A stretch of 27,225 bases of DNA from a virus. Position 1 is the first letter of the stretch. Every line of letters starts with the position of its first letter. A model generated the notes under the pieces. That model saw nothing but the letters and a program-made list of their open reading frames with translations. It had not been told where the DNA came from and did no database searches. The stretch spans positions 1-27,225 of the IMG/VR virus record IMGVR_UViG_3300010157_000208; one strand, 5' to 3'. Below, piece after piece: positions 2,229 through 26,522 of the stretch. Position numbers and translations under genes: made by a program.

Positions 2229-2448
2229 ATTCTTTAAGGACGAAAAAGGTGCACACTCCCACACGAGACTCATATCTATTATTGGGTCTTTTGTTGTTTT
2301 AGGAGGGTTTGCATTTTATCCAACAAATGATGGGTTACAAAATACAGTCTTAGGGATATTGGCAACCTCATTAACAAACGCAACTGTATCAAAGTTTGCT
2401 CCTAAAAACAAAGTAAAAATAGATAACCCAGATGGAGAGAATAACTAA
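2218..2448 (+). CDS. Two-helix membrane protein, putative holin
   Basis: The ATG at 2218 is chosen, giving 76 residues starting MLTEFFKDEKG; the frame is open further upstream, but that part would lie wholly inside the previous gene. After a charged N-terminus there are two hydrophobic segments (about residues 18-34 and 43-58) separated by a turn containing PTND, then a basic and acidic tail. An FFKDEKG-type N-terminus followed by two helices resembles small proteins annotated as putative holins in Bacteroidota phages. It overlaps the lysozyme gene by 17 bases, so the two are probably translated together. The pairing with an unexported lysozyme supports a holin role, but a purely structural membrane protein is not excluded. 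Confidence 0.7.
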   Translation: MLTEFFKDEKGAHSHTRLISIIGSFVVLGGFAFYPTNDGLQNTVLGILATSLTNATVSKFAPKNKVKIDNPDGENN

Positions 2449-2893
2449 AATTAGCACTAACGGATTAACTGTATTAAAGCATTTAGAAGGATTCAGAGCT
2501 AAACCCTACTTGGACGCTGGCTCGATTGCCACTACGGGCTACGGTTCTACATACTACAAAGACGGCAAAAGGGTTTGCTTAACTGATGCACCTATTGGAG
2601 AATACGAGGCATCTTGTTTATTAGATGACTTATTGGTTCACTTTGAAAGAAGTGTAGATGCTTACACAAGAGATGACATTACTCAGAATCAGTTCGATTC
2701 CTTGGTGCTTTTCTCGTATAATGTGGGGGCAAACGCCTTTAAAAATTCTACATTATTGAAATGCGTTAATGAATATAAGCCTGACGATGAGATAAAGACT
2801 CAGTTTATGAGATGGACTAAGGTTAACGGAGTTGTTAATGTAGGGCTAAGAAATAGAAGAATAGCAGAAATTAATTTATACTTCAAGCAATGA
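2432..2893 (+). CDS. Phage lysozyme, glycoside hydrolase family 24 (endolysin)
   Basis: A 153-residue muramidase that would cleave the glycan backbone of peptidoglycan. The GH24 catalytic triad is visible as Glu19 (in LEGF), Asp28 (YLDAG) and Thr34 (TTGYG), with the same Glu-9-Asp-6-Thr spacing as T4 lysozyme. Further on, QFDSLVLFSYNVGANAF and a C-terminal GLRNRRIAE motif match the substrate-binding lobe of P22-type phage lysozymes. The length is normal for the family and there is no signal peptide, so release to the periplasm should depend on a holin, two candidates for which lie directly upstream. It overlaps the next gene by 4 bases (ATGA). Confidence 0.95.
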   Translation: MERITKISTNGLTVLKHLEGFRAKPYLDAGSIATTGYGSTYYKDGKRVCLTDAPIGEYEASCLLDDLLVHFERSVDAYTRDDITQNQFDSLVLFSYNVGANAFKNSTLLKCVNEYKPDDEIKTQFMRWTKVNGVVNVGLRNRRIAEINLYFKQ

Positions 2894-12472: not shown

Positions 12473-15400
12473 ATGGCTAAGTTAAAATTAGATTTAACAG
12501 GTACTTCTTTTGATAAAAAATCAGCACCTGTACTTGACCTTTCTGGAACTTCATTTGAAAAAAAAAATCCAATTCAAAAAAGCGATACGGCATTATCTGG
12601 AAAGACAAGTTCTACGGCTGGGAAATTTGAAGTTCCCGATAATGATTCTGCTTGGTACGATTGGGATAACATCAAGAAAGCAGGTACAAATTTAATTGAT
12701 TTTGGAAAAGGGCTAGGGCAAGAAATACCATCTGAGGTAACAAGGATGATTGGAGATACAATATCGTCACTAGGTCTTGCTGTTGATTTGGGAGGAAGGT
12801 ATTCGTCTGCTGGAATTAATTATTTAATGGGCGACAAAAAACAAGCTCAAAAAGATATTGACTCTGACCCTACTTTTTTAGGTAAATATTTAGTAGACGC
12901 GGGAAATTATTTAAGTGAAAGTGCAGACTTAACTAAAGACGACACATTAAAAAATTGGGGTGTATCTGAAAAAAACAGAAACCCTAATCGGACATTTTAT
13001 GACGCATTTTCAGATGGAGATTTAGGAGATGGTTCTGCAATGTTATTTAGAGATGTATTATCTACTGTACCACAGGCTGCCGCAGCCATTTTAACATCGG
13101 GCGGTTCTTTAGAAGCCCAAGCATTAAGAAAATCTGGCGGATTACTTAGGCAAACAGCACTATCAGAGATGGGCGCTATTGCTAGTACTGAATTGCCTGC
13201 TGTTTTATCTACTGGTTTAAAATCTGAAATTGGAGGACAGTTTAAATTTGGAATAGGTCTTGGTACAACGTCTTCTTTAGCAGCAGAGTATAAAAAAGAC
13301 AATCACGTTACCGCAACTGATTTTCTAGAATCTATTGCTAGGGGTGTTATAGAAGGAGCTAGTGAATCCTTGTTTGATACTGATATTATTGCTGCTAAAA
13401 AATTAGCAAGTAAGTTCGTAAATGTATCAGATAATCCAGCTGTAAAAGGTATTATGGCTTCTATTGTAGGAGAAGGCGAAGATGCTGCAAAAGAAAAAAT
13501 AGTAAGAACAACTACAGATATTTTAGGGAAAGCTTTTGCAGGAGGACGTAACGAAGGATTTGAAGAGGTCGCATCTAGTTTTGGCAATATGCTTATTGAT
13601 GCAACAAAACAAGGCGGATTTACAATGGAGTCTTTAGATAAATTCAAGAAAGATGCTATTGAATCGTTTATTGTAGGGTCATTAAGCGGAGGTTTAATTT
13701 CAGGTGAAGTAGCAAGACGTTCTCGTGTAAAACTTACAGATATTCAGCAGAAAACAATTGATAGGTACAATGAGGTTATAAATGACGACACGGTTTCGGA
13801 TGAAGCCAAAAATGTAGCTAAGGAAAGAATTAAAAATATACTTGATTATAGTGCAAGTTTAAGTAAAGATAATTATGGTTTAATTGCAGCTTTACCTAAA
13901 GAAAAAAGAGTAGAGGCATTAGGGTATTTATCTAGTATTACCAAACTAGAAGAAGATATAAAGAATACAAAAGATTCAGAAGATGGCTCTTATCATTCAG
14001 AGTTAAATAATAGCATTAAGTCTTATGAAGATAAAGTTAATAATTTAATTGACGAGGAATATAAGTCTCAAAGAGAAGCTCGTAGGAAAGAAACAATGTC
14101 TCAGTCAGATATAGATACAGAAGATATTATTAGCTTTTTCCAATCTACTGAAAAGCAAGGATTTTCTATTGAAGATATGGATAGCGCTCTTAATGATATA
14201 AGAGCTAGAGTAAATAACAAAGAAGAGATAGACCAAAAAGATATTGGCACTGCTAATGATATGTTATATGAGATTATAGATAATATTGAAAAATCAGAAC
14301 TAACTGCCGAACAAAAGAAAGTTGCCTCTGAGCCATTCTTTAATCAGATTAAACAATTAGAATCATACGATAAAACAATTAAGACCACAGAGGTTACTAC
14401 TCCTATACAAGAAGTTACTACAACAACTCGTGAAACAGGAAGAAGAGAAAGACCAAAGACAACTGTGCTGACTGATAGGTTTAATCTTGAGCCTGTTGAA
14501 GTGACTGATTCAGAAGGAAATAAATCTAATTATGTCGCAAAGGTTAATGAGGACGGAAGTATATCCCTTGTACCAAAAGTTAAGTTTAGCAGAACCGCTA
14601 CAGAACAAAAGAGAAAGGGTATAGAATTAGATTATAATTTCTTAGAGTTCCAAGAAAGTATTAAAGACGAAAACGACAGGGTTATTGGAGCTAGATTATT
14701 AGATAAAAAGACGGGCAATATTATTGAGATATCTAATCCAGAATTAGCAATTGATTTAGCTTTAAAAGCAAAGCAAGACGCATTAGGTAATGTATCTGAG
14801 GGTGTAATGTCTCAAGAAAAAACGGTTACCCCAGTTGGTCAGTTAACTAGCATTGTTAAAGAGTTTGTCAACAAGAGAGCAACTAAGGTCGCGCCACAGG
14901 CTACAACAGAAACAACTGAAGAGCAAGCCCCAGCGTTAATAACAGAGGTTCCTACATCTCCCGTAGGATTGCCTTCAAGAAAAGCTTATGTAGTTGAGGA
15001 TGATGTTGAAACAAAAAAAGGGAATAAAATCTTAAACAAGATTTCTCCTGAAATAAAGAAGCGTATTGCTAATTATGTTAAATCATTAAAAGCTACTATC
15101 CCCAATTCAAAAGTTGTCCTTTATGACAATAAAGCTGATATGATTGAGGGCATTGTTAATCAAGGATATTCAAGACAAGAGGCAACAAAAGCGGTAAATG
15201 AATCCGATGGCTTATACGCAGGTTCATCTAATACTATTCACATTGATGTAATGAGAATGGACAAGACTACTTTGCCTCACGAGATATTTCATCCGTTAGT
15301 AGCTAGATTAGCTAAAGAAAATCCTGCCGAGTTTATTGCTCTAAGAAAAAGAATTTCAAAAGTTTTATCAGAAAGTCAACTTAAGGAGTTGGATGCTTTT

Positions 15401-18400
15401 GCTGCACAATATTCTGATGAAGGGAAAGCTGTAGAAGCCGAGGAGTTTTTATCTCAGTTAGGGGGTTTAGTAACAGCTAATAAAGCTAAGATGGAGCGAG
15501 GAACCCTTATGAATCTTGCCTTAGCAGTTAAAGAATTTTTGAAGAAAATTGCAGCTAAGACAAACTCTAAAGTATTAAAGAATTTTGCAGACAGTATTTT
15601 TACAGAGCAAACAAAAACAGACGATTTGATTAAATTTTTTGAAGGATTTGGCAAATCTCTAAGACAAGGTGAGGCAATTAATGTTGAAGGTTTAAATTCT
15701 ACAGTTGACTTGTTAGGCACTGAACCTTATTCTGAGAGTTTATCCATAGAAGTTCCTACTGAATCATTTAAGGCTTCTAATCCAATTATTAGAAGTAAGA
15801 AAATTGGGAAGTATAGTTTTCCAGATGGGGCAGTATTTGAATCAGTTGAACTACCAATAAAATCTTTAGATGATATTATTAAGCAATACGAAGGAAGAGT
15901 TGTAATTATAACTAGCGATGCTACAGGATATGGTGTAGACTCATTAGGAGAACCAATACTAGGTGGATTTGGGTTTTCTACTATTAAGCAAAACATCGAT
16001 GATAACATTGGATTTGCATCAGTAGGAGAGAAAGAAGTTAAGTCTACGATGACTCGTGCTTTCAATATTCACGGAAAAGGGAAGGCTGTAGTTTTAATCA
16101 TGATTCAACCTGCTTTTACTACCATTGGAAATTCCTATGGAGTTAAATACTTTGCAAGAGGTATGCGCGAGATAGCTCAGAAAGACGCTACTCAATTAGA
16201 GCAATTAAAAATTTCTATGAAAGAAGCAATTCTTAATAGCGCTGAGATATCTGAAGAGTTACAAAAAGTTGATGCTAAAAAAGGAAAAAGAAACACTGAA
16301 AAAGCTTTATTCAAACTAATTGATAGTATCAATAAGGATACTAATATAGAAGAGTTTACTAAAGAATTTTTGGCGGACACAACTTTTAAGTCAAGAACTG
16401 GAATTATTAATATGTTCCTAATCGACTCACAAAATGTTGGGTCTAACGTTGCAGCGCATCCATTAAAGGTAGCTTTAAAAGAGATTGGCTATACTAAAGT
16501 TGATTTTTTAAATGAATATGGAGATAAATCTTTCTTGACAAAAGAGATGATTGAATCTAATGCGGGAGGATTTGTTGTAGGAGGATTTGAGATTGATATC
16601 AAATCAGGTAAAGATATGGCAGAGCAGATATCTGAACTTCAGTCTAAAGGAATTACGCATCCATTATTTAACGGTAAGCTAGGAGGAACGAATCACTTTG
16701 CATTAGATGGCATCTATGATGTTAATGAAAACTTTGCTGAATTTGCTAAACCTGAATCTGAGATAACTTTACCAAACGAAGAAAGGGACGCTTTGGTTAG
16801 AGATTTTTACAAAGAAGATAAATTTTATGAGGCTAAATACAGAGAAACACCATTAGCAGAAAGAACTTACACTCAATTAAAGGCTGATTATAAGTCTAAA
16901 TTTAAAGATGAGATAATTAAACCTACAGGTGCACTTAAATACAAAACTGCGAATGTTGCGGCTAGCGTTGCCCGTAGTTTAGGGTTTAATTTAGATGAAG
17001 CCAAAAGAGATGACTTAAGAAAATCTGAATTTAAGCAACGTCAAAGAGATACTTTACGTCAAAAGAAATCCTATCCTGACGCATTTGAAGAATCAAGAAA
17101 TGAATATTTAGATAAATTTAAAAATACTCCTAAAGAAGTGTCTAGGTATTTGCGCAAGGTTTTGTTTGAGCGTAATATTAATGTTAAAAAAGCATTTGAA
17201 GATGCTGAGTTAGAGTTCTCTTTATATACTATGTATAATAGGGCAGGAGCATCTATGTTTGGCAATCTTAAATTTACTGAAAAATTTAATGAGATTTATG
17301 GGAATTTAAGTACTGAAGAGATTAAGTTATTGGATAATTTTATCTTACTAAGAAGAACTGTTGCGATTGATACAAACTTTGATAATAGAGAAGAGTCTAG
17401 ACCAGAACATCCTGACCATAAGAATATAGATGGGGTTAAAACTGCTACCAATAAGGAATCTGCTTTAAGTACGCTTGAAGATTATAAGGATTTATTAGGA
17501 GACGAATTGTATAATAAAATATATAATTCATCTGATAAATATTTTAAAGCATTTAGTGATATTCTTAAGTACAAGTATGACAACGGATTAATAAATAAGG
17601 AGACTTACGAACTTTATAAAGATTACAATTATTCGCCGCGTAAATTCTTACAATTTATGTTCGGCACATCTATTAGTGAAGAAAGTAAGTTAACAACAAA
17701 CAATTTTTATCAAAGAGGTCTTGCTTTATCTAAAGATGAATTATCTAAGATTCAAAGTGGTTCGACAAAAGGATTGTTTGTAGATTCAGCTAAACTGCTT
17801 CACGCTGCAATGATTGCTACTGAAGTACGAGTTGCATCTAACCTTGCTCTCAAAACACTTTATAACGAGGCAATTCCCGCTAACCTTGACTTTGTTAAAG
17901 AGGTTGAATACGAGAAGTATAAAGATGGTACAATAAAAGTAAACCCTGATGGTTCATTAAAGTATGTTAAAACTGCAGACGAAGGGTTCAGAATCGTAAC
18001 TTTTAAAGAAGACGGAATAGTAAAAGCATTTGAATTAAAAGAAGATTTGGCTAAGGAATACTTTGACGAAGAATTATTTGATAAGAATAGCAAAGCATAT
18101 AAGTTTGCTCAGGTTGCATCAGGTTCTAATATCCTTCGTAATATGGCAACTGGAATGAACTTAGCATTCTTTGTTACCAATATACCTGTCGATGCCTTAT
18201 CTCAAGTACAATTTTCGGGCATACACGATGGAGCTAGCCTTGGTGCGCCGGGGCAATTTGCTAGTGCTATTGCGGGAACTCTTATTAAGTCAGGTCAATT
18301 ATTGCCATTAGAGTTTGGCTTTAAAAACAAAGCTCTTGAAGACTTAATCTATGAGTACGGAAAAGCTGGTGGACTTATGATGACATTGACTGAAGAGTAT

Positions 18401-19858
18401 TCATCTAAACTTAAATTTTTAGGAAACATTCCCAAATATTTAGGTTCATTTGGTAATGCTTCAGAGATGGGCTCTAAGCTCAATGCATATGAGAAAGTTC
18501 GTAATAATGAGATAAAGAAATACAAGGAGCAAAATGGTAAAGAGCCAATTGGCGAGGATTTAGCAAAGATTCAAACTAAAGCTGCGTACATTGCCCGTGC
18601 GGCTATGGATTACCATAGAGGCGGACTTCTTACTAAATGGATAGATGGATTCATCCCTTATCTAAACGTATTGTCACAAGCAACTAAAATAACAGCGGAC
18701 TATATAGTTAAAAACCCCAAAGACTTTACAGACAAGATTACTCAAATGGGTATTTTTGTTATAGGACTAACTATCTACAATTTAATGGTAGCTGGAGGTG
18801 ATTACGATAACGACGATAATGAACAAGACTTATTAACTAAGATTGTTATATTTTCTCCATTTAAAGACGCAGATGGCAAAAGGGGTAAATTAGAGATTGG
18901 GGCGCCAGATATGGTTAAGAAATTCTTGAATATATTTCAAAGTATAGGAGAGGGAATTTATTATCAAGCTATTCTTGGTGAAAAACAAAAAATCGATGAA
19001 TGGAAAATTGCAAAGAGAGCGCAATACTTAAGCTCATTTGATTTAAAATTACCGTCAAATATTCCTCCTGCTCTTAAAGCTATGGTTGAATACAAGTATA
19101 ACTTAGATTTATGGAGAAATAAAGATATTACAAAGCAATTAGGAGATGTATTGCCACAAGATGAAGGAAGATATAATCCTAGTGTAGCATCATTCTACAA
19201 AATTATTGGTAGTTCAACAGGGATGTCTCCAATAAGATTACAAAAGGCGTCTGAAAACTTTATTACTCAATCAAACCCTTTAGTAGGAATAGGTTATTCT
19301 TTAATGGATAAGATGGTTAATAATTATGCCAATCTTCCAGAATCTCAACGTTCTAAATACGACAAGGGTAATATTTCAGATATTCCACTAGCTGCTTTTG
19401 ATAAGATAGCTGGTAGGCTTTATTCTAAGACTGACCCTACTGTAACATATACTAAAGGGAAAGATATAATTGATAGAATAAATCAAACTGCAGGAAGTAA
19501 AAAACAAGAGGCTAAAGCTGAGATGAAATTGCTTGTTGAGAAAAAAGCCTCAGTCGCAGAATTAAATGCATTCTTAATTAAACAAGACCCTATTTATAGA
19601 AAAGCGGCGGTTGAATACAGAGATATGCTACAGAAAAAGGCAAAATTAAATTATCCTGATTTTCAAGAAAAATATTATGATATTATGTTAGGTCAAAATG
19701 CTGAAGCAAAAGCTCAAATAGTCTACACTTATTTTCCTTATATTTTAAATAAAGGTAATGAGAAACTTGTACAAGATTTAAACGAGCTTAATTTAGTAGG
19801 TAAGGATACTAAAGTTTATTTAAATAAATACGTTAAAGAAAAAGGAATAAAAGAATGA
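12473..19858 (+). CDS. Giant 2461-aa polyvalent ejection protein with zincin-like motif
   Basis: Domains in order: residues 6-31, two 15-residue repeats of LDL(T/S)GTSF(D/E)KK; about 60-420, Gly/Ala-rich helices with hydrophobic patches, as in membrane-active ejection proteins; about 420-690, acidic coiled-coil-like helices; about 690-800, a beta-rich segment; about 880-1000, a zincin-like domain with HEIFH at 936-940 in the setting LPHEIFHPLVARL and a likely third ligand at Glu990/991; about 1100-1430, a conserved-looking beta/alpha domain; about 1880-2130, a region with MNLAFFVTNIPVDAL and YHRGGLLTKW like the C-terminal large polyvalent protein-associated domain (LPD38-like). Phage polyvalent proteins bring several effector domains into the host with DNA. 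The peptidase may cut envelope or host proteins. It is the largest gene here, occupying the position of T7 gp16 or of crAss-like virion RNA polymerases, but no polymerase motif was seen. Confidence 0.75.
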   Translation: MAKLKLDLTGTSFDKKSAPVLDLSGTSFEKKNPIQKSDTALSGKTSSTAGKFEVPDNDSAWYDWDNIKKAGTNLIDFGKGLGQEIPSEVTRMIGDTISSLGLAVDLGGRYSSAGINYLMGDKKQAQKDIDSDPTFLGKYLVDAGNYLSESADLTKDDTLKNWGVSEKNRNPNRTFYDAFSDGDLGDGSAMLFRDVLSTVPQAAAAILTSGGSLEAQALRKSGGLLRQTALSEMGAIASTELPAVLSTGLKSEIGGQFKFGIGLGTTSSLAAEYKKDNHVTATDFLESIARGVIEGASESLFDTDIIAAKKLASKFVNVSDNPAVKGIMASIVGEGEDAAKEKIVRTTTDILGKAFAGGRNEGFEEVASSFGNMLIDATKQGGFTMESLDKFKKDAIESFIVGSLSGGLISGEVARRSRVKLTDIQQKTIDRYNEVINDDTVSDEAKNVAKERIKNILDYSASLSKDNYGLIAALPKEKRVEALGYLSSITKLEEDIKNTKDSEDGSYHSELNNSIKSYEDKVNNLIDEEYKSQREARRKETMSQSDIDTEDIISFFQSTEKQGFSIEDMDSALNDIRARVNNKEEIDQKDIGTANDMLYEIIDNIEKSELTAEQKKVASEPFFNQIKQLESYDKTIKTTEVTTPIQEVTTTTRETGRRERPKTTVLTDRFNLEPVEVTDSEGNKSNYVAKVNEDGSISLVPKVKFSRTATEQKRKGIELDYNFLEFQESIKDENDRVIGARLLDKKTGNIIEISNPELAIDLALKAKQDALGNVSEGVMSQEKTVTPVGQLTSIVKEFVNKRATKVAPQATTETTEEQAPALITEVPTSPVGLPSRKAYVVEDDVETKKGNKILNKISPEIKKRIANYVKSLKATIPNSKVVLYDNKADMIEGIVNQGYSRQEATKAVNESDGLYAGSSNTIHIDVMRMDKTTLPHEIFHPLVARLAKENPAEFIALRKRISKVLSESQLKELDAFAAQYSDEGKAVEAEEFLSQLGGLVTANKAKMERGTLMNLALAVKEFLKKIAAKTNSKVLKNFADSIFTEQTKTDDLIKFFEGFGKSLRQGEAINVEGLNSTVDLLGTEPYSESLSIEVPTESFKASNPIIRSKKIGKYSFPDGAVFESVELPIKSLDDIIKQYEGRVVIITSDATGYGVDSLGEPILGGFGFSTIKQNIDDNIGFASVGEKEVKSTMTRAFNIHGKGKAVVLIMIQPAFTTIGNSYGVKYFARGMREIAQKDATQLEQLKISMKEAILNSAEISEELQKVDAKKGKRNTEKALFKLIDSINKDTNIEEFTKEFLADTTFKSRTGIINMFLIDSQNVGSNVAAHPLKVALKEIGYTKVDFLNEYGDKSFLTKEMIESNAGGFVVGGFEIDIKSGKDMAEQISELQSKGITHPLFNGKLGGTNHFALDGIYDVNENFAEFAKPESEITLPNEERDALVRDFYKEDKFYEAKYRETPLAERTYTQLKADYKSKFKDEIIKPTGALKYKTANVAASVARSLGFNLDEAKRDDLRKSEFKQRQRDTLRQKKSYPDAFEESRNEYLDKFKNTPKEVSRYLRKVLFERNINVKKAFEDAELEFSLYTMYNRAGASMFGNLKFTEKFNEIYGNLSTEEIKLLDNFILLRRTVAIDTNFDNREESRPEHPDHKNIDGVKTATNKESALSTLEDYKDLLGDELYNKIYNSSDKYFKAFSDILKYKYDNGLINKETYELYKDYNYSPRKFLQFMFGTSISEESKLTTNNFYQRGLALSKDELSKIQSGSTKGLFVDSAKLLHAAMIATEVRVASNLALKTLYNEAIPANLDFVKEVEYEKYKDGTIKVNPDGSLKYVKTADEGFRIVTFKEDGIVKAFELKEDLAKEYFDEELFDKNSKAYKFAQVASGSNILRNMATGMNLAFFVTNIPVDALSQVQFSGIHDGASLGAPGQFASAIAGTLIKSGQLLPLEFGFKNKALEDLIYEYGKAGGLMMTLTEEYSSKLKFLGNIPKYLGSFGNASEMGSKLNAYEKVRNNEIKKYKEQNGKEPIGEDLAKIQTKAAYIARAAMDYHRGGLLTKWIDGFIPYLNVLSQATKITADYIVKNPKDFTDKITQMGIFVIGLTIYNLMVAGGDYDNDDNEQDLLTKIVIFSPFKDADGKRGKLEIGAPDMVKKFLNIFQSIGEGIYYQAILGEKQKIDEWKIAKRAQYLSSFDLKLPSNIPPALKAMVEYKYNLDLWRNKDITKQLGDVLPQDEGRYNPSVASFYKIIGSSTGMSPIRLQKASENFITQSNPLVGIGYSLMDKMVNNYANLPESQRSKYDKGNISDIPLAAFDKIAGRLYSKTDPTVTYTKGKDIIDRINQTAGSKKQEAKAEMKLLVEKKASVAELNAFLIKQDPIYRKAAVEYRDMLQKKAKLNYPDFQEKYYDIMLGQNAEAKAQIVYTYFPYILNKGNEKLVQDLNELNLVGKDTKVYLNKYVKEKGIKE

Positions 19859-19998
19859 TAAAGAAGGTAGCAAAAGGATACGAAGTCGTATCTAAAACAA
19901 CAGGAAAGAATCTTGGGGTTTCAAAAACAAAAGCAGGCGCAGCTAAAAGAGAAAAGCAAGTTAATTATTTTAAATATTTAGCATCAAAAAAGAAATAA
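19855..19998 (+). CDS. Small Lys-rich phage protein (47 aa)
   Basis: A 47-residue ORF whose ATG overlaps the stop of the giant gene (ATGA), strong evidence for coupled translation. It is very basic and contains KKVAKGYEVVSKTTGKNLG, then SKTKAGAAKREKQV. Short proteins with a KKVxxGYxVxSKxGKxL...T+xxAxKRxxQV pattern are common in phage genomes and are of unknown function. It opens a series of very small Lys/Ala-rich genes that runs to 22765. DNA binding or virion association is inferred from charge and position. Confidence 0.75.
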   Translation: MIKKVAKGYEVVSKTTGKNLGVSKTKAGAAKREKQVNYFKYLASKKK

Positions 19999-20069: not shown

Positions 20070-20537
20070 ATGGCGAATTTAATAGAAGTACAACAGAAAG
20101 CTAAAAGAGCGCAAGCCTTCGGTACATTAATGAATGACTACTCACAGAACTCTTCAGAGATGGAAGGCGCGGATGACCCTCAAGAGGAGTTGTTATGTGA
20201 GATGCTAGAGGCATCTGCACAAGCAAAGGTATTCCATTGGCAAACGGAAATTTTTTCAGAACATGAGGCTTTAGGCGAATTTTACGAAGAGTTTAATGAT
20301 TTAATGGATAAGTTTATAGAATCGTATCAAGGCTGTTATGGAAGAATTATGTTGGGCTGCGATATGGAAGTTAAGCCGTACACAGTTGGTGCCCCTATGG
20401 TATTCTTAGAATCATTTAAAGAATATATTTCAGGCGGAGCAAGAATGTTAGTTTTGGGTAATTCTGCGTTAACAAACATCTTAGATGAAATTAATGGATT
20501 AGTAGAGCAAACTATTTATCGATTAACTTTTAAATAA
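20070..20537 (+). CDS. DUF5856-like protein with a Dps/ferritin-like motif
   Basis: A 155-residue, predominantly helical protein recalling DUF5856 family proteins of Bacteroidota and their phages. Residues 55-88 read FHWQTEIFSEHEALGEFYEE followed by LMDKFIESYQG. His56, His65, Asp80 and Glu84 copy the HW...H...DxxxE pattern of Dps ferroxidase sites; the His65-Asp80-Glu84 spacings (15 and 4) equal those of E. coli Dps H63-D78-E82, while His56 to His65 is three residues shorter. Dps proteins are iron-oxidising, DNA-protecting 12-mers; iron binding here is inferred. No Lys-rich N-tail is seen, but the surrounding genes make very basic peptides. It follows the palindromic leader and precedes a GIY-YIG homing endonuclease. 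Alternatives: a helical structural protein without metal. Confidence 0.75.
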   Translation: MANLIEVQQKAKRAQAFGTLMNDYSQNSSEMEGADDPQEELLCEMLEASAQAKVFHWQTEIFSEHEALGEFYEEFNDLMDKFIESYQGCYGRIMLGCDMEVKPYTVGAPMVFLESFKEYISGGARMLVLGNSALTNILDEINGLVEQTIYRLTFK

Positions 20538-20548
20538 TAAAGTAGCTT

Positions 20549-21253
20549 ATGAAAGAAAATGCTTATATATATTGTCATTTAAGAAAAGATAAAAATGAGA
20601 TATTTTATATAGGCATCGCCACTAAAAAAACTAGGGCTTATGAAAGTTTTAATAGGCGTAATAAAATCTGGGGCAAAATAGCGAGTAAAACCAATTATGA
20701 TGTAATAATATTATATGAAAATTTATCTTGGCAGCAAGCTTGCGAAATCGAGAAGCTAATGATAAAATCTCATGGAAAAATATACGATAATACTGGTACG
20801 CTAGCAAACATTACAGATGGAGGAAATGGAACGTTAGGTTATGTTAATGATAAAAATCCTTTAAAGGGTAGAAAGCTTTCGGAAGAGCATAAATTAAAAA
20901 TTAAAAATGGTTTATTAAATTCACAAGACAGAAGAAAGCCATATAGTGAAGAACGCAGGAAAGCTATATCTGAAAGGATGAAATCAAATAAATATTGTCT
21001 TGGAAGAAAATTGAGTGAAGAAGAGAGAAAAAAAAGGCTAAATAATAAAAGCAATAGTCGAAAAGTGATAGATATAGTTTCTTTAGAAGAATATGCTTCC
21101 TTGAAAAATTTATATAAAAGCAATTTTAATTATTTTAATAACCTTGGTCTTAAATATTCGGCTTGCGTTGCTCAATTAAGAGGTCAAAATAAAAATAAAA
21201 CAAATTATATGTACTTGGATTTATATTCACAAAAACAATTAACTTTAAAATAA
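20549..21253 (+). CDS. GIY-YIG homing endonuclease with NUMOD3 repeats
   Basis: A 234-residue freestanding homing endonuclease. The N-terminal GIY-YIG nuclease has AYIY (residues 5-8) and FYIGIA (19-24), Arg29/Arg36-37 and the conserved Glu66-Glu68 in CEIEKLMI. Then come three DNA-binding NUMOD3-type motifs: NPLKGRKLSEEHKLKI (about 103-118), PYSEERRKAI (131-140) and LGRKLSEEERKKRL (151-164), and a C-terminal NUMOD1-like helix-turn-helix segment from about 171. Such genes move by cutting an allele that lacks them. Codon use is more AT-rich and the text is less compact than in the neighbours. It separates the Dps-like gene from the small basic genes, with no promoter seen, so it depends on read-through. 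The target site is unknown. Confidence 0.9.
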   Translation: MKENAYIYCHLRKDKNEIFYIGIATKKTRAYESFNRRNKIWGKIASKTNYDVIILYENLSWQQACEIEKLMIKSHGKIYDNTGTLANITDGGNGTLGYVNDKNPLKGRKLSEEHKLKIKNGLLNSQDRRKPYSEERRKAISERMKSNKYCLGRKLSEEERKKRLNNKSNSRKVIDIVSLEEYASLKNLYKSNFNYFNNLGLKYSACVAQLRGQNKNKTNYMYLDLYSQKQLTLK

Positions 21254-21262
21254 ATTAAACTT

Positions 21263-21376
21263 ATGAAAACTAAGAAAGCAATGCCAATGAAGAAGGATTC
21301 TAAAAAAGCTATGCCAGCTACAAAGAAGCCTATGCCCCCAATGAAAAAAGGAATGATGTCTAAAAAGAATTGTTAA
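21263..21376 (+). CDS. Tiny Lys/Met/Pro-rich protein (37 aa)
   Basis: A 37-residue ORF consisting largely of KKAMPMKK-like and KKPMPPMKKG-like units, with a single C-terminal Cys. The composition, Lys with Met-Pro, is repetitive and low in complexity. The ATG lies 9 bases after the preceding stop and the stop overlaps the next start (TAATG), so translation is credible. I recall similar Lys/Met/Pro-rich short peptides in phage late regions without function. A virion peptide that binds DNA or a coat protein is possible. Confidence 0.6.
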   Translation: MKTKKAMPMKKDSKKAMPATKKPMPPMKKGMMSKKNC

Positions 21377-21555
21377 TGAAAGAAAAGAAAGGAATGGGGT
21401 TTAAGGCAGCAGCTGCTAACATTGCCTCAAAGCAAGGTATCTCAAAAGAAAGAGCAAGTGCTATATTAGCTGCATCTGCAAGAAAGGCATCACCTAAAGC
21501 AAAGAAGGCTAACCCTAATTTAAAGCACGTTTTACCTGCTAAAAAGAAATATTAA
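21376..21555 (+). CDS. Small basic protein, possible DNA-binding (59 aa)
   Basis: The ATG at 21376 (TAATG) is preferred over a TTG two codons upstream because it overlaps the stop of the previous gene. The 59 residues contain GFKAAAANIASKQGISKERA followed by SAILAASARKASPKAKK and a basic tail. The first 35 residues look like a short helix-turn-helix-like segment (AAAANIASKQGISKERASAIL), a pattern common in small phage proteins that read KAxAxxIAxKxGxSxxxAxAIL. The Lys-rich tail resembles histone-like tails. The role is unknown; DNA binding is inferred from composition. Confidence 0.65.
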   Translation: MKEKKGMGFKAAAANIASKQGISKERASAILAASARKASPKAKKANPNLKHVLPAKKKY

Positions 21556-21559
21556 TTTT

Positions 21560-21706
21560 ATGAAGAACGGTCTCTATAGCAATATTAATGCAAAGCGCAA
21601 GCGTATTGAAGCAGGTTCAGGCGAAAAGATGAGAAAAGTAGGTAGCAAAGGTGCTCCTACTGCAAAGCAATTTAAGCAAGCGGCTAAGACAACTAAGAAG
21701 AAATAG
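21560..21706 (+). CDS. Small basic protein (48 aa)
   Basis: A 48-residue ORF starting MKNGLYSNINAKRKRIEAGS, then SGEKMRKVGSKGAPTAKQFK and a KKTTKKK-like tail. The pattern (LYxNIxxKRxRIxxGSGExMRxxGxxGxPTxxxF) is one I associate with short, widespread phage proteins of unknown function that occur in T4-like and other large phages. It lies four bases after one small gene and one base before another, all in the same direction. No membrane segment or Cys is present. Virion-linked DNA binding is a guess from charge. Confidence 0.7.
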   Translation: MKNGLYSNINAKRKRIEAGSGEKMRKVGSKGAPTAKQFKQAAKTTKKK

Positions 21707-21707
21707 T

Positions 21708-21998
21708 ATGGCATCAGAACTTTGGCAGAAGAAAGCAGGGCAAAATAAAAATGGCGGCTTATCTAAAGCGGGTCGAGCCTCCTATAATGCTCAAACTGGG
21801 GGTCATCTTAAAGCTCCTGTTAAGGCAGGAACTAATCCAAGAAGGATTTCCTTTGCCGCAAGGTTTGCGGGGATGGCAGGACCAATGAAGAAGCCTAACG
21901 GAGAGCCTACAAGAAAGGCATTAGCTCTAAAGGCTTGGGGTTTTGGAAGCGTAGAAGCTGCAAGAAACTTTGCGAATGCTCATAAAAAAAAGAAATGA
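21708..21998 (+). CDS. Small basic phage protein, DUF6321-like pattern (96 aa)
   Basis: The ATG at 21708, one base after the previous stop, gives 96 residues; the frame stays open upstream only within the previous gene. The sequence has GGLSKAGRASYNAQTGGHLK, then SFAARFAGMAGPMKKPNGEP and TRKALALKAWGF. The pattern GLxxxGRxxYNxxTGxxLKAP...FxARxxGMxGPMxxxxGxPTRKALALxxW is shared by short proteins in many aquatic phages, which I remember as DUF6321 or DUF5872 (the number is uncertain). No function is known to me. It is basic, and its stop overlaps the start of the HNH gene (ATGA), suggesting the HNH gene was inserted right behind it. Confidence 0.75.
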   Translation: MASELWQKKAGQNKNGGLSKAGRASYNAQTGGHLKAPVKAGTNPRRISFAARFAGMAGPMKKPNGEPTRKALALKAWGFGSVEAARNFANAHKKKK

Positions 21999-22462
21999 AA
22001 CTAACTGAGTGGTTTAAGTTTTGTCAATCCTGCGGGAAAAAGCAATACTATACTACTAAATGTGAGCTCAATAGGGCAATCAAGATTAATACTCTCTGTA
22101 TTAGTTGCCATAATAAATCAGGTAAAAATAATAAAGGTAAGTACAGGGAAATTCCCATCTCTTGGTTTGAGTCTAAAAGAAGAAAAGCGTTAGAGAAAAA
22201 TAGGGAGTTTGGATTTGATATTAAATACATCTGGACTATTTACATCAAACAAGACAGGAAGTGTGCTTTGTCGGGTATCCCATTAGATTTTGATGCAGAT
22301 ACGGATAATGGTATGGTGTCAATTGACAGGATTAATAACGACAAGGGATACGTCAAGAGAAATATACAACTGCTTCATAAGGATGTTAATTACATGAAGT
22401 GGACGTTTACTCAGAAACATTTCATAGAATTGTGTAACTTAGTAGCCAAGAATCATAAATAG
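21995..22462 (+). CDS. HNH homing endonuclease
   Basis: A 155-residue HNH nuclease. An N-terminal zinc-ribbon has Cys10, Cys13, Cys35 and Cys38 (CQSC and CISC). The nuclease half contains CALSGIPLDFD (from residue 90), then SIDRINNDKGYVKRNIQLLH and KDVNYMKW near 109-136, with Asp111, Asn114, Asn123 and His128 as the HNH-like core. This is close to HNH enzymes of T7- and T4-like phages that act as freestanding mobile elements. The start is coupled to the preceding small gene (ATGA), and the stop at 22460-22462 is directly followed by the TTG start of the next. Lysine and isoleucine rich; likely horizontally acquired. Confidence 0.85.
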   Translation: MKLTEWFKFCQSCGKKQYYTTKCELNRAIKINTLCISCHNKSGKNNKGKYREIPISWFESKRRKALEKNREFGFDIKYIWTIYIKQDRKCALSGIPLDFDADTDNGMVSIDRINNDKGYVKRNIQLLHKDVNYMKWTFTQKHFIELCNLVAKNHK

Positions 22463-22765
22463 TTGAACGTGAACAAGTCAAACGCTAAAGGTAGAACCGC
22501 TAAGTTTTACGCCACCCATCCTGAGTCTAAAGCTAAGAAAGCTTCTTACGATAAAGCTAATGATGCAACACCTGAACGTAAGGCAAGGCGTGCTGAATTA
22601 ACTAAGATTAATAGAGAACATCAGAAGTCTGGAAGGGGTAAGGTCGGAGATGGTAAGGACGCATCTCATACAAAGAATGGTATTGTTTTAAAACCTGCTT
22701 CCGTAAATAGGGGAAGTAAGACGGACAGCAGCGGCGATGCTAGGGCTAGGGGGAACAAAAGGTAG
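22463..22765 (+). CDS. Small basic phage protein with GDGKDASH motif (100 aa)
   Basis: A 100-residue basic protein, last gene on the plus strand. No ATG is near the N-terminus: translation should begin at TTG 22463, directly after the HNH stop, or at GTG 22469. The sequence reads NKSNAKGRTAKFYATHPESK, then YDKANDATPERKARRAELTK and GKVGDGKDASHTKNGI, followed by NRGSKTDSSGDARARG. I recall the NKSNxxGRTAKxxxxxPExxAKKxxYDK...NRxxxxxGxGDGKDxSH pattern as a conserved short protein of tailed phages, function unknown. The loss of ATG right behind the HNH gene may come from that insertion. The last 78 bases overlap a minus-strand gene. Confidence 0.7.
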   Translation: MNVNKSNAKGRTAKFYATHPESKAKKASYDKANDATPERKARRAELTKINREHQKSGRGKVGDGKDASHTKNGIVLKPASVNRGSKTDSSGDARARGNKR

Positions 22766-25039: not shown

Positions 25040-25561
25040 TTAATCTTCTTTATTTTCAATGCAATAAAATATAAATGATTGGTGCTTTTCTTTTGTATCA
25101 AGAAGTTCGTTTGTATCACATCTCCTATACATCATCCGCTCTTGGTCATAAATAATAAAACGGTGAGCCTTCATGTGATGTTTTTTTGTTACAAATATTA
25201 AGTCCTTGTAATGTTCTTCATTATAAGACCAATGGTGTCTTTCAAGTCCTAATTCTGGGGGTTTAATACTTGCTGACATACTATGAGCTGATTTTTTTTC
25301 AGGATATAGAAATTTATACCTAATATTGCGTTGTGGGCTAATTTTATTATTTACCCCTACGTATAATCTATGATACTTATCTCTTCCTCTTTTGCGTTCT
25401 TTTTCAATATATGATTCGTCTTCTGAATTTTTTACGTAGTTTTCTTTAACATCTGTTTTTGCACAGGGCTTGCATTTATTTAAATGCCCATCTCCCATTT
25501 GGCTATGTTTATAAAACTCGTTTAATTCTTTTAACTCGCCACATTTGAAACACTTCTTCAT
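25040..25561 (-). CDS. Zinc-finger HNH-type protein, probable homing endonuclease
   Basis: A 173-residue protein. The N-terminal zinc finger has Cys4, Cys7, Cys30 and Cys33 in CFKCGELKELNEFYKH...CKPC, typical of the zinc ribbons of HNH-like phage proteins. Residues 107-133 hold ERHHWSYNEEHYKDLIFVTK followed by KHHMKAHR, with His109-His110, Asp120 and His133 likely forming an HNH-like site; the classic Asn is unclear. Its own predicted promoter and location between the ssDNA-binding-like gene and a conserved 156-aa gene suggest an inserted mobile gene. It could alternatively be a non-mobile phage nuclease. Confidence 0.7.
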   Translation of the reverse strand: MKKCFKCGELKELNEFYKHSQMGDGHLNKCKPCAKTDVKENYVKNSEDESYIEKERKRGRDKYHRLYVGVNNKISPQRNIRYKFLYPEKKSAHSMSASIKPPELGLERHHWSYNEEHYKDLIFVTKKHHMKAHRFIIYDQERMMYRRCDTNELLDTKEKHQSFIFYCIENKED

Positions 25562-25615: not shown

Positions 25616-26320
25616 TTAGAAGGGCAAGTCTGAATGACCAGCTGCTTCTAATACAGGCTCTGCGAATATTGGATGGAACGTTTCAACCTGAGGAATTTCT
25701 TCATGGGATACCTCTTGTGAAGTCTTGCGTGAGTCTAAGTATTCCTTTAATAAGTCGTACGCTGCCTCTGCTTTCTCGCTTGCATCAAGACTAATTCCTT
25801 TTCCTAATGTGAATGTAGGAGTTGTGTACTTAACTGCTCCCTTCTTTCCTTCAGTCGCCGAATTAACTTCAATCGTGTTGCCTAAGAAAGACTTGCGATT
25901 GTCTTTAGTGAAGTCAGACCAAGTCATCAACGCTGAACCCTTTAAAGAGATATTAACAATCTCGTTGTTAACGAATGCGTAGATGCTAACACAATAGTGA
26001 CCACCTAATGACTGAACCTTTAACTTAATGTCTTGGTAGATTCCCTTAGCTAAGTCCCCTCCTTTAAATGCTCTAACGTTTAATTCTTCGTTCTTAGTAG
26101 AACGCACTTCGTTAGAATAGATTCCTGATGAAGATGAATCGTGCCATCCCTTAACTGTAGACAATTCGTCTAAGTGGATTAATGTTAACGGCAAAGTTAA
26201 CTTCTTGTTCTCTTTTGTTTCCTTGTCGTAGAAGGTAAAACATTTGTCGTTGGACGACCAGGATAAGTACTTCTTAACTGGTGACTCAACTGTTGTGCGA
26301 TAAGCGTCTGCTCTTGACAT
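25616..26320 (-). CDS. Probable single-stranded DNA-binding protein of phage type
   Basis: The ATG at 26320 is chosen over an upstream TTG because the protein then begins MSRADAYRTTVESPVKKYLS, as I recall for this Bacteroidota phage family. The 234 residues form one conserved block with KKYLSWSSNDKCFTFYDKET, then HLDELSTVKGWHDSSSSGIY and ELNVRAFKGGDLAKGIYQDI, and a final acidic/hydrophobic tail ending SDLPF. A C-terminal DLPF tip matches the protein-interaction tail of bacterial SSB (DDDIPF/DLPF). Neighbouring RusA, PD-(D/E)XK and HTH genes fit a DNA-metabolism role. The OB-fold itself cannot be confirmed from sequence alone. The start is preceded by an ACCAAACA leader. Confidence 0.7.
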   Translation of the reverse strand: MSRADAYRTTVESPVKKYLSWSSNDKCFTFYDKETKENKKLTLPLTLIHLDELSTVKGWHDSSSSGIYSNEVRSTKNEELNVRAFKGGDLAKGIYQDIKLKVQSLGGHYCVSIYAFVNNEIVNISLKGSALMTWSDFTKDNRKSFLGNTIEVNSATEGKKGAVKYTTPTFTLGKGISLDASEKAEAAYDLLKEYLDSRKTSQEVSHEEIPQVETFHPIFAEPVLEAAGHSDLPF

Positions 26321-26329
26321 AATCTGTTT

Positions 26330-26337
26330 TGTTTGGT
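26330..26337 (-). promoter_or_regulatory. ACCAAACA leader before the ssDNA-binding-like gene
   Basis: ACCAAACA on the minus strand (26337 to 26330), followed by AAACAGATT and ATG at 26320. No TAnnTTTG element is present in the 20-base gap to the preceding gene, so the motif is probably a translation signal here. Confidence 0.45.
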
Positions 26338-26342
26338 TTAAA

Positions 26343-26522
26343 TTAATATTGATAGTTACTTTCTGGTGTAGCAAATTGAGACAAGTACGCTACTCTAAAT
26401 ACTAGCTTGTCTACTTTCTTTTGTACTGGTGCTTTTAAGTTACCGTTAGATAAACGATTCTTTGGATTAGATACGATAGCCTCCGCCTTGCAGAGCACAT
26501 CGCTGTATGTTTGTTTTTTCAT
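26343..26522 (-). CDS. Small protein of unknown function (59 aa)
   Basis: A 59-residue ORF that begins 17 bases after a predicted promoter and stops 22 bases before the ssDNA-binding-like gene. It is basic, with KAEAIVSNPKNRLSNGNLKA followed by VQKKVDKLVFRVAYLSQFAT and a single Cys11. Two helices are plausible. The family is not recognised. Its promoter, leader and position as the first gene of this transcription unit are strong support that it is a real gene; it may act with the ssDNA-binding-like protein. Confidence 0.65.
   Translation of the reverse strand: MKKQTYSDVLCKAEAIVSNPKNRLSNGNLKAPVQKKVDKLVFRVAYLSQFATPESNYQY

Follow-up and report, generated by a model that had tools for sequence, protein, structure and literature searches.

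A short phage protein of family DUF5856 carries a Dps-like H-H-D-E quartet and is a candidate ferroxidase

The DUF5856 gene of a 27,225-nucleotide viral DNA (the window, i.e., the whole stretch analyzed) encodes a small acidic helical-bundle protein whose role is probably in iron handling and not in DNA packing, since the metal-binding residues of Dps are kept in this family. The account that we favor, with fair though far from full confidence, is a short ferritin-fold protein which works like Dps and oxidizes Fe(II) through a paired H-H-D-E quartet. According to this mechanism, helices A and B would bear the four ligands, paired between two subunits; the paired quartet would bind Fe(II) and oxidize it with peroxide or oxygen, so that less Fenton damage would occur while the phage infects or within its particle. 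The sequence evidence and one structural model give good support to the iron-site reading. The most likely function is that of a ferroxidase, as a candidate only; that the metal is iron and that the protein assembles as a dimer or cage is what we infer.

The window protein matches DUF5856 (PF19174) with E=1.3e-20 (74.6 bits for a gathering cut-off of 34.6) and phrog_858 with E=2e-23 (profile positions 8-127 of 129), a group annotated in PHROG as "starvation-inducible transcriptional regulator". The ferritin/Dps profile PF00210 gave no match to it at E<=1 and matched a single member of a 14-protein family alignment (E=0.034), whereas PF19174 matched all 14, RB14 included. For want of a PF00210 match, the protein is filed under DUF5856 and not under Dps, even if it probably works like the latter. 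Using tblastn, 756 phage records were retrieved at E<=0.01, repeated records of the same phage being counted, and 1410 at the looser E<=1. The relatives comprise RI.-1 of T4-like phages (RB14, weak with the window protein as query, E=0.02), proteins of Ackermannviridae and of ~350 kb phages, and those of Caulobacter phage KcrB and Methylophilaceae phage P19250A; the annotator of one phage record mentioned an HHpred similarity to L. lactis DpsA. DUF5856 is a widespread and little-studied viral family, and a PMC search found no paper on "DUF5856". Two giant-virus proteins, from Pithovirus LCPAC404 and Fadolivirus (BFVD A0A481ZC29 and A0A7D3V608), also match the window model (TMt 0.93 and 0.77, ~30% identity), so that the family may extend to viruses of eukaryotes.

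An earlier sequence-only reading of this DNA had pointed to a Dps-like site in this open reading frame, and H56, W57, H65, D80 and E84 are indeed all present. The distances H65-D80 (15) and D80-E84 (4) were verified and both equal those of Dps, as that reading had stated. Its placement of the first histidine in the HW context of Dps stands in part: W57 directly follows H56, but H56 lies 9 and not 12 residues before H65, and the turn between helices A and B is therefore three residues shorter than in Dps. For Dps, we take the ligand numbering to give 12, 15 and 4; Dps chains were also aligned here. In shuffled versions of the window protein, HW-x(4-12)-H-x14-D-x3-E occurred in 1 of 100,000 and the looser H-x(8-11)-H-x14-D-x3-E in 22 of 100,000, both patterns having been chosen post hoc with the protein already seen. 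Invariance across homologues is a stronger test than these odds.

For this purpose, 163 tblastn-matched loci yielded 153 proteins with a start and a stop (10 were dropped), and the conservation set comprised the window protein and 152 others, i.e., 109 distinct proteins, the window's own copy (L015) being left out and L018 entering as its annotated open reading frame. H56, H65, D80 and Y150 are each found in 109/109 distinct proteins, Y72 in 108 and E84 in 107, counts which are biased upward for the scored ligands because some of the patterns used to fetch sequences include H56/D80, H65 or D80/E84. The 15- and 4-residue spacings hold in all 109 and the H56-H65 distance of 9 in 107; the member from phage Cognac has a three-residue insert which brings its H-H spacing to 12, as in Dps. 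Within the 14-protein alignment, whose 13 other members are 21-35% identical to the window protein except one at 78%, only M1, H56, H65, D80, E84, Y150 and L152 are invariant, and the 12 GenBank phages in it, found by tblastn without residue patterns, have the same invariants. That a motif arose by chance and has no function is scarcely credible for a quartet present in 107-109 of 109 distinct proteins. For a metal site, no line of evidence weighs more than this one: as read from these alignments, proteins that otherwise diverge have kept the four Dps ligands. Together with a profile search headed by Dps, this bears out the Dps-like site first proposed.

In ferritins and bacterioferritins, each subunit bears E, ExxH, E and ExxH on its four helices. 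No conserved ExxH was found in DUF5856, and the invariant H/D/E residues lie on helices A and B. Helix C has no invariant H/D/E, and helix D contains the invariant Y150, a near-invariant N136 and a near-invariant D139 (D in 104/109, E in 3). The latter means that the site is possibly not of plain Dps type, and D139 could, judging from its conservation, be a further ligand. W57 is less general (24/25 close members vs 36/109 in the wider family), and other traits of the close clade, namely the N-terminal helix (4-26 in the model), C43, C89 and C97, are mostly missing from the wider family. In two close relatives, L049 and L050 (3001-3465), K replaces E84 and S replaces both C89 and C97, cysteines which are present in the remaining 23 of 25 close members; these copies may possibly have lost the metal site and linked cysteines together.

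In a PDB search with a profile built on the 14-protein alignment, the 11 leading matches were all of the Dps family (best 1.5e-6), NAP and CAIP being counted by us as such, and H56, H65, D80 and E84 were aligned to H, H, D and E. With a 37-sequence alignment, the first six PDB matches were again of the Dps family (best 3.8e-5). The four-helix bundle which the sequence-only reading had proposed to look for is present in the AlphaFold model (pLDDT 86.5, pTM 0.73), with helices at 37-58, 62-90, 108-127 and 132-154 in addition to the N-terminal one; it is of ferritin/Dps type and not specific to Dps. Foldseek listed 50 matches, nearly all Dps with probabilities of 0.97-1.00, with weak scores (best E 0.023, none <=0.001, TM 0.47-0.61 among the matches listed). 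VIA-align superposed the model on MsDps2 with Z 13.3 and 2.6 A over 121 residues, a Z near 13 being within reach of helical bundles, and 3fse, YciE/YciF and mini-bacterioferritin scored within about one Z unit of most Dps rows. A ferritin-like fold is thus supported by the predicted model, and since other ferritin-like folds fit about equally well, it is the ligand pattern, together with the profile search, that points to Dps in particular. Residues 91-107, at the place of the short BC helix which lies at the two-fold interface of the dodecameric Dps cage, are modeled without helix (mean pLDDT 78 for 91-100).

For L055, a short member, the model is of higher confidence (pLDDT 95.9). Foldseek placed Dps first for it, but with an rmsd of ~18 A, and VIA-align superposed helices A and B only (~61 residues, 1.7-2.1 A, Z ~5), a fit no better than that to unrelated hairpins. 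Its best whole-length match was sulerythrin (Z 7.8, rmsd 6.4 A). The link between helices B and C is short in L055 (residues 55-66), which suggests that a partner subunit may supply the C/D part.

Compared with MsDps2, E. coli Dps and B. subtilis MrgA, the window protein shares the quartet on helices A and B, the 15 + 4 spacing and the predicted four-helix bundle, and differs by its shorter A-B turn, the missing BC helix of its model, its acidity and its lack of a PF00210 match. This acidity bears on the proposal, made in the sequence-only reading, that the protein shares a role in DNA protection or condensation with its basic neighbors. A DNA-binding Dps that coats or condenses DNA together with these proteins would suit the Dps-like fold, and the six surrounding proteins, noted in that reading as very basic, have pI values of 10.3-11.5. 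The window protein itself, however, has a computed pI of 4.35 and no lysine-rich tail of the type found in DNA-binding Dps; across 25 close members, the net charge is +1 or +2 over the first 20 residues and -1 to -3 over the N-terminal part as a whole. All 13 distant members computed have pI values of 4.1-5.6, and short members have no N-terminal extension. The proposal was consequently not upheld: a DNA-coating role is improbable, and the tie to the basic genes comes down to a gene order conserved in 14/14 close relatives.

This order consists of a large protein, a 46-49 aa basic protein, DUF5856 and a 48-50 aa basic protein (Table 1 for the window). The large proteins at the upstream end are partly similar among the 14 relatives; they measure 1715 aa in L013 and about 2400-2600 aa or more in the others, sizes which are lower bounds where the open reading frame runs to the edge of the 8-kb flank. 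Homing or other genes are variably inserted in the block: the slot after DUF5856 is empty or differently filled among relatives, and the phrog_16028 homologue, found downstream in 14/14, is not always adjacent. A phrog_6437 homologue occurs in 13/14, the locus of the remaining relative ending before that point.

Table 1. Genes and candidate metal-ligand codons discussed in the text (window coordinates)
Feature	Position	Strand	Product	Basis or remark
Endolysin	2432-2893			
Large protein, no clear family	12473..19858	+	2461 aa	Upstream end of conserved block
Basic protein	19855..19998	+	47 aa, pI 10.3	Homologue just upstream of DUF5856 in 14/14 close relatives
DUF5856 / PHROG 858 gene	20070..20537	+	155 aa	ORF list, Pfam and PHROG matches
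Candidate ligand H56	20235-20237			Codon
Candidate ligand H65	20262-20264			Codon
Candidate ligand D80	20307-20309			Codon
Candidate ligand E84	20319-20321			Codon
Homing-endonuclease-like gene (phrog_314)	20549..21253	+		PHROG match; directly after DUF5856
Basic protein	21263..21376	+	37 aa, pI 10.5	
Basic protein	21376..21555	+	59 aa, pI 10.8	61 aa from TTG 21370
Basic protein, phrog_16028	21560..21706	+	48 aa, pI 11.0	
Basic protein, DUF6321	21708..21998	+	96 aa, pI 11.5	Homologue in 4/14 close relatives
HNH/endonuclease-VII-like gene	21995..22462	+		PHROG match
Basic protein, phrog_6437	22463..22765	+	100 aa, pI 10.6	
Endonuclease-like gene (third in window)	25040-25561			
phrog_6706 protein	25616-26374	-		

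The same gene order can be read differently, i.e., as that of a structural metal protein whose quartet binds Zn, Mn or Fe and holds a dimer of a head or tail part, with no catalysis. The block kept in 14/14 relatives lies beside window genes with virion-protein matches, tail-fibre-like genes neighbor the family members L055 and L066, and, as described below, homologues have been detected in virions. In the wider family, however, the neighbors differ: among 56 nearest or second-nearest open reading frames (of 121 listed) at viral_contigs loci outside the close clade, no fixed functional partner was found and the families were mixed, with at least 8 HNH endonucleases, at least 7 small terminase subunits, at least 5 epimerases and at least 2 tail fibres. 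The chromosomal copies of the Actinomarina family, considered further on, are also left unexplained by a phage particle part. We hold this non-catalytic role to be rather unlikely, though deserving of real weight.

Two homologues of Ackermannviridae connect the family to the virion. In the LIMEstone1 report, ORF78 is an "unknown structural protein" of the virion, of 13.15 kDa and with 28.21% coverage (PMC3296691). We identified ORF78 with DUF5856 through its homologue in Coodle by mass, coverage and position, and not through its own sequence: the Coodle protein has 117 aa and 13.15 kDa, 33/117 equals 28.21%, and its place near the primase gene agrees with ORF78. In Sajous1, the DUF5856 gene is gp217 (117 aa, identical to heyday_90); CsCl-purified virions yielded 10 spectra of its product, which Phyre2 matched to "Ferritin", and the authors caution that proteins with low spectral counts may be contaminants (PMC10892097). 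For one member, both likeness to ferritin and association with the virion are hence already published, and the earlier remark that phage Dps-like proteins are rarely studied, fair in general, overlooked this distant homologue reported as a virion "ferritin". CBA120 and Coodle homologues and gp217 share the family and quartet of the window protein, from which these Ackermannviridae proteins differ by their length of 117 aa, the lack of an N-terminal extension, ~35% identity and another genome context. The window protein is possibly carried in the virion, and its packaging by this phage would follow by analogy; the virion evidence comes from other phages and few peptides.

From gp217, the Sajous1 authors suggested a "ferrojan horse", in which particle-held iron docks to the iron-uptake receptors of the host for entry (PMC10892097). 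In the same paper, deficiency of the host in TonB or FeoB left the efficiency of infection much the same, and we judge this entry route highly improbable for the window protein. If phages do package an iron oxidase, infection would include the control of iron and peroxide. Other ferritin-like proteins encoded by phages are the DPS-like enzymes of gut phages ("Gratiaviridae" and others), for which a reduction of free iron has been proposed and which PMC8008677 describes as members of the Dps family. The YerA41 paper was discarded as a source for a phage Dps, the dps in it being that of the host.

The T4 member of the family, RI.-1, has been linked to lysis. A T4 record is a 100% match to the RB14 copy (L019), which has the quartet; this copy differs from the window protein by an identity of 24% and its place beside rI. 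Weak effects of RI.-1 on lysis inhibition have been described, over-expression slightly delaying its collapse (Golec 2010, as summarized in PMC6832632), and a literature search found no paper joining Dps, RI.-1 and phage. A lysis-timing factor, as proposed for RI.-1, would fit the position of the gene, which comes after rI or an antiholin gene in each of five examined records of T4-like phages and before a holin gene in P19250A. It is nevertheless a very unlikely role here: no lysis gene was recognized beside the window gene, the endolysin lying elsewhere (Table 1), and phage RaK2 has a relative of RI.-1 with no apparent T, RI, RI.1 or RIII, according to PMC3622015. The ferroxidase reading provides the family, T4 RI.-1 among its relatives, with a biochemical hypothesis that can be tested on four specified residues.

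DUF5856 is also found in cells. Genome scans with family patterns gave 29 pattern matches and no relative, and a second query 30 matches and one relative, L166 (4974-5381), in a Candidatus Actinomarina genome bin, with neighbors which look metabolic, an assignment of our own except for DsrE. Chromosomal DUF5856 genes occur in 14/42 Actinomarina-family genomes (L166 and L167-L180), genomes of 0.6-1.1 Mb and unstated completeness, and a kinase-DsrE-SDR locus holds the gene in 9 of the 14 carriers. PF00210, the sole measure used for classical ferritins there, rubrerythrin-type families being left out, matched 0/42 of these genomes vs 14/14 control genomes. Among the controls, PF19174 matched B. 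subtilis only, below the cut-off. A phylum sample gave matches in 3/296 genomes, the sole one above the cut-off being the starting genome itself, and no paper was found on Actinomarina with ferritin. The Actinomarina copies offer a cellular setting for testing DUF5856 function.

A broader picture, which we consider doubtful, is that DUF5856 forms a separate compact, iron-oxidizing branch of the ferritin fold, with short forms possibly being domain-swapped dimers and not Dps cages, which is carried in phage particles and is the only ferritin-type protein in the small genomes of marine Actinomarina. If true, the particle protein would serve to quench iron or peroxide of the host as the phage enters, and T4 RI.-1 would act on lysis timing via iron or redox.

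Further observations concern other genes of the window and its relatives. The PF03237 terminase profile matched 0/10 relatives and phrog_2 (terminase) 1/8, with internal stops. On the contig of L004, L165 (41759-42295, minus strand) has a terminase-like match interrupted by three stop codons (one TGA, two TAA) and is perhaps an intron-split or broken terminase gene. For a 1245-aa protein, the phages collection gave no match; in the same collection, the phrog_6706 protein has matches in 52 mycobacteriophage records only. A third endonuclease-like gene lies in the window (Table 1). Finally, the DUF6321 protein matched 483 phage records, mainly from phages of Synechococcus and other cyanobacteria, Pelagibacter and Methylophilales, a range which points to an aquatic phage.
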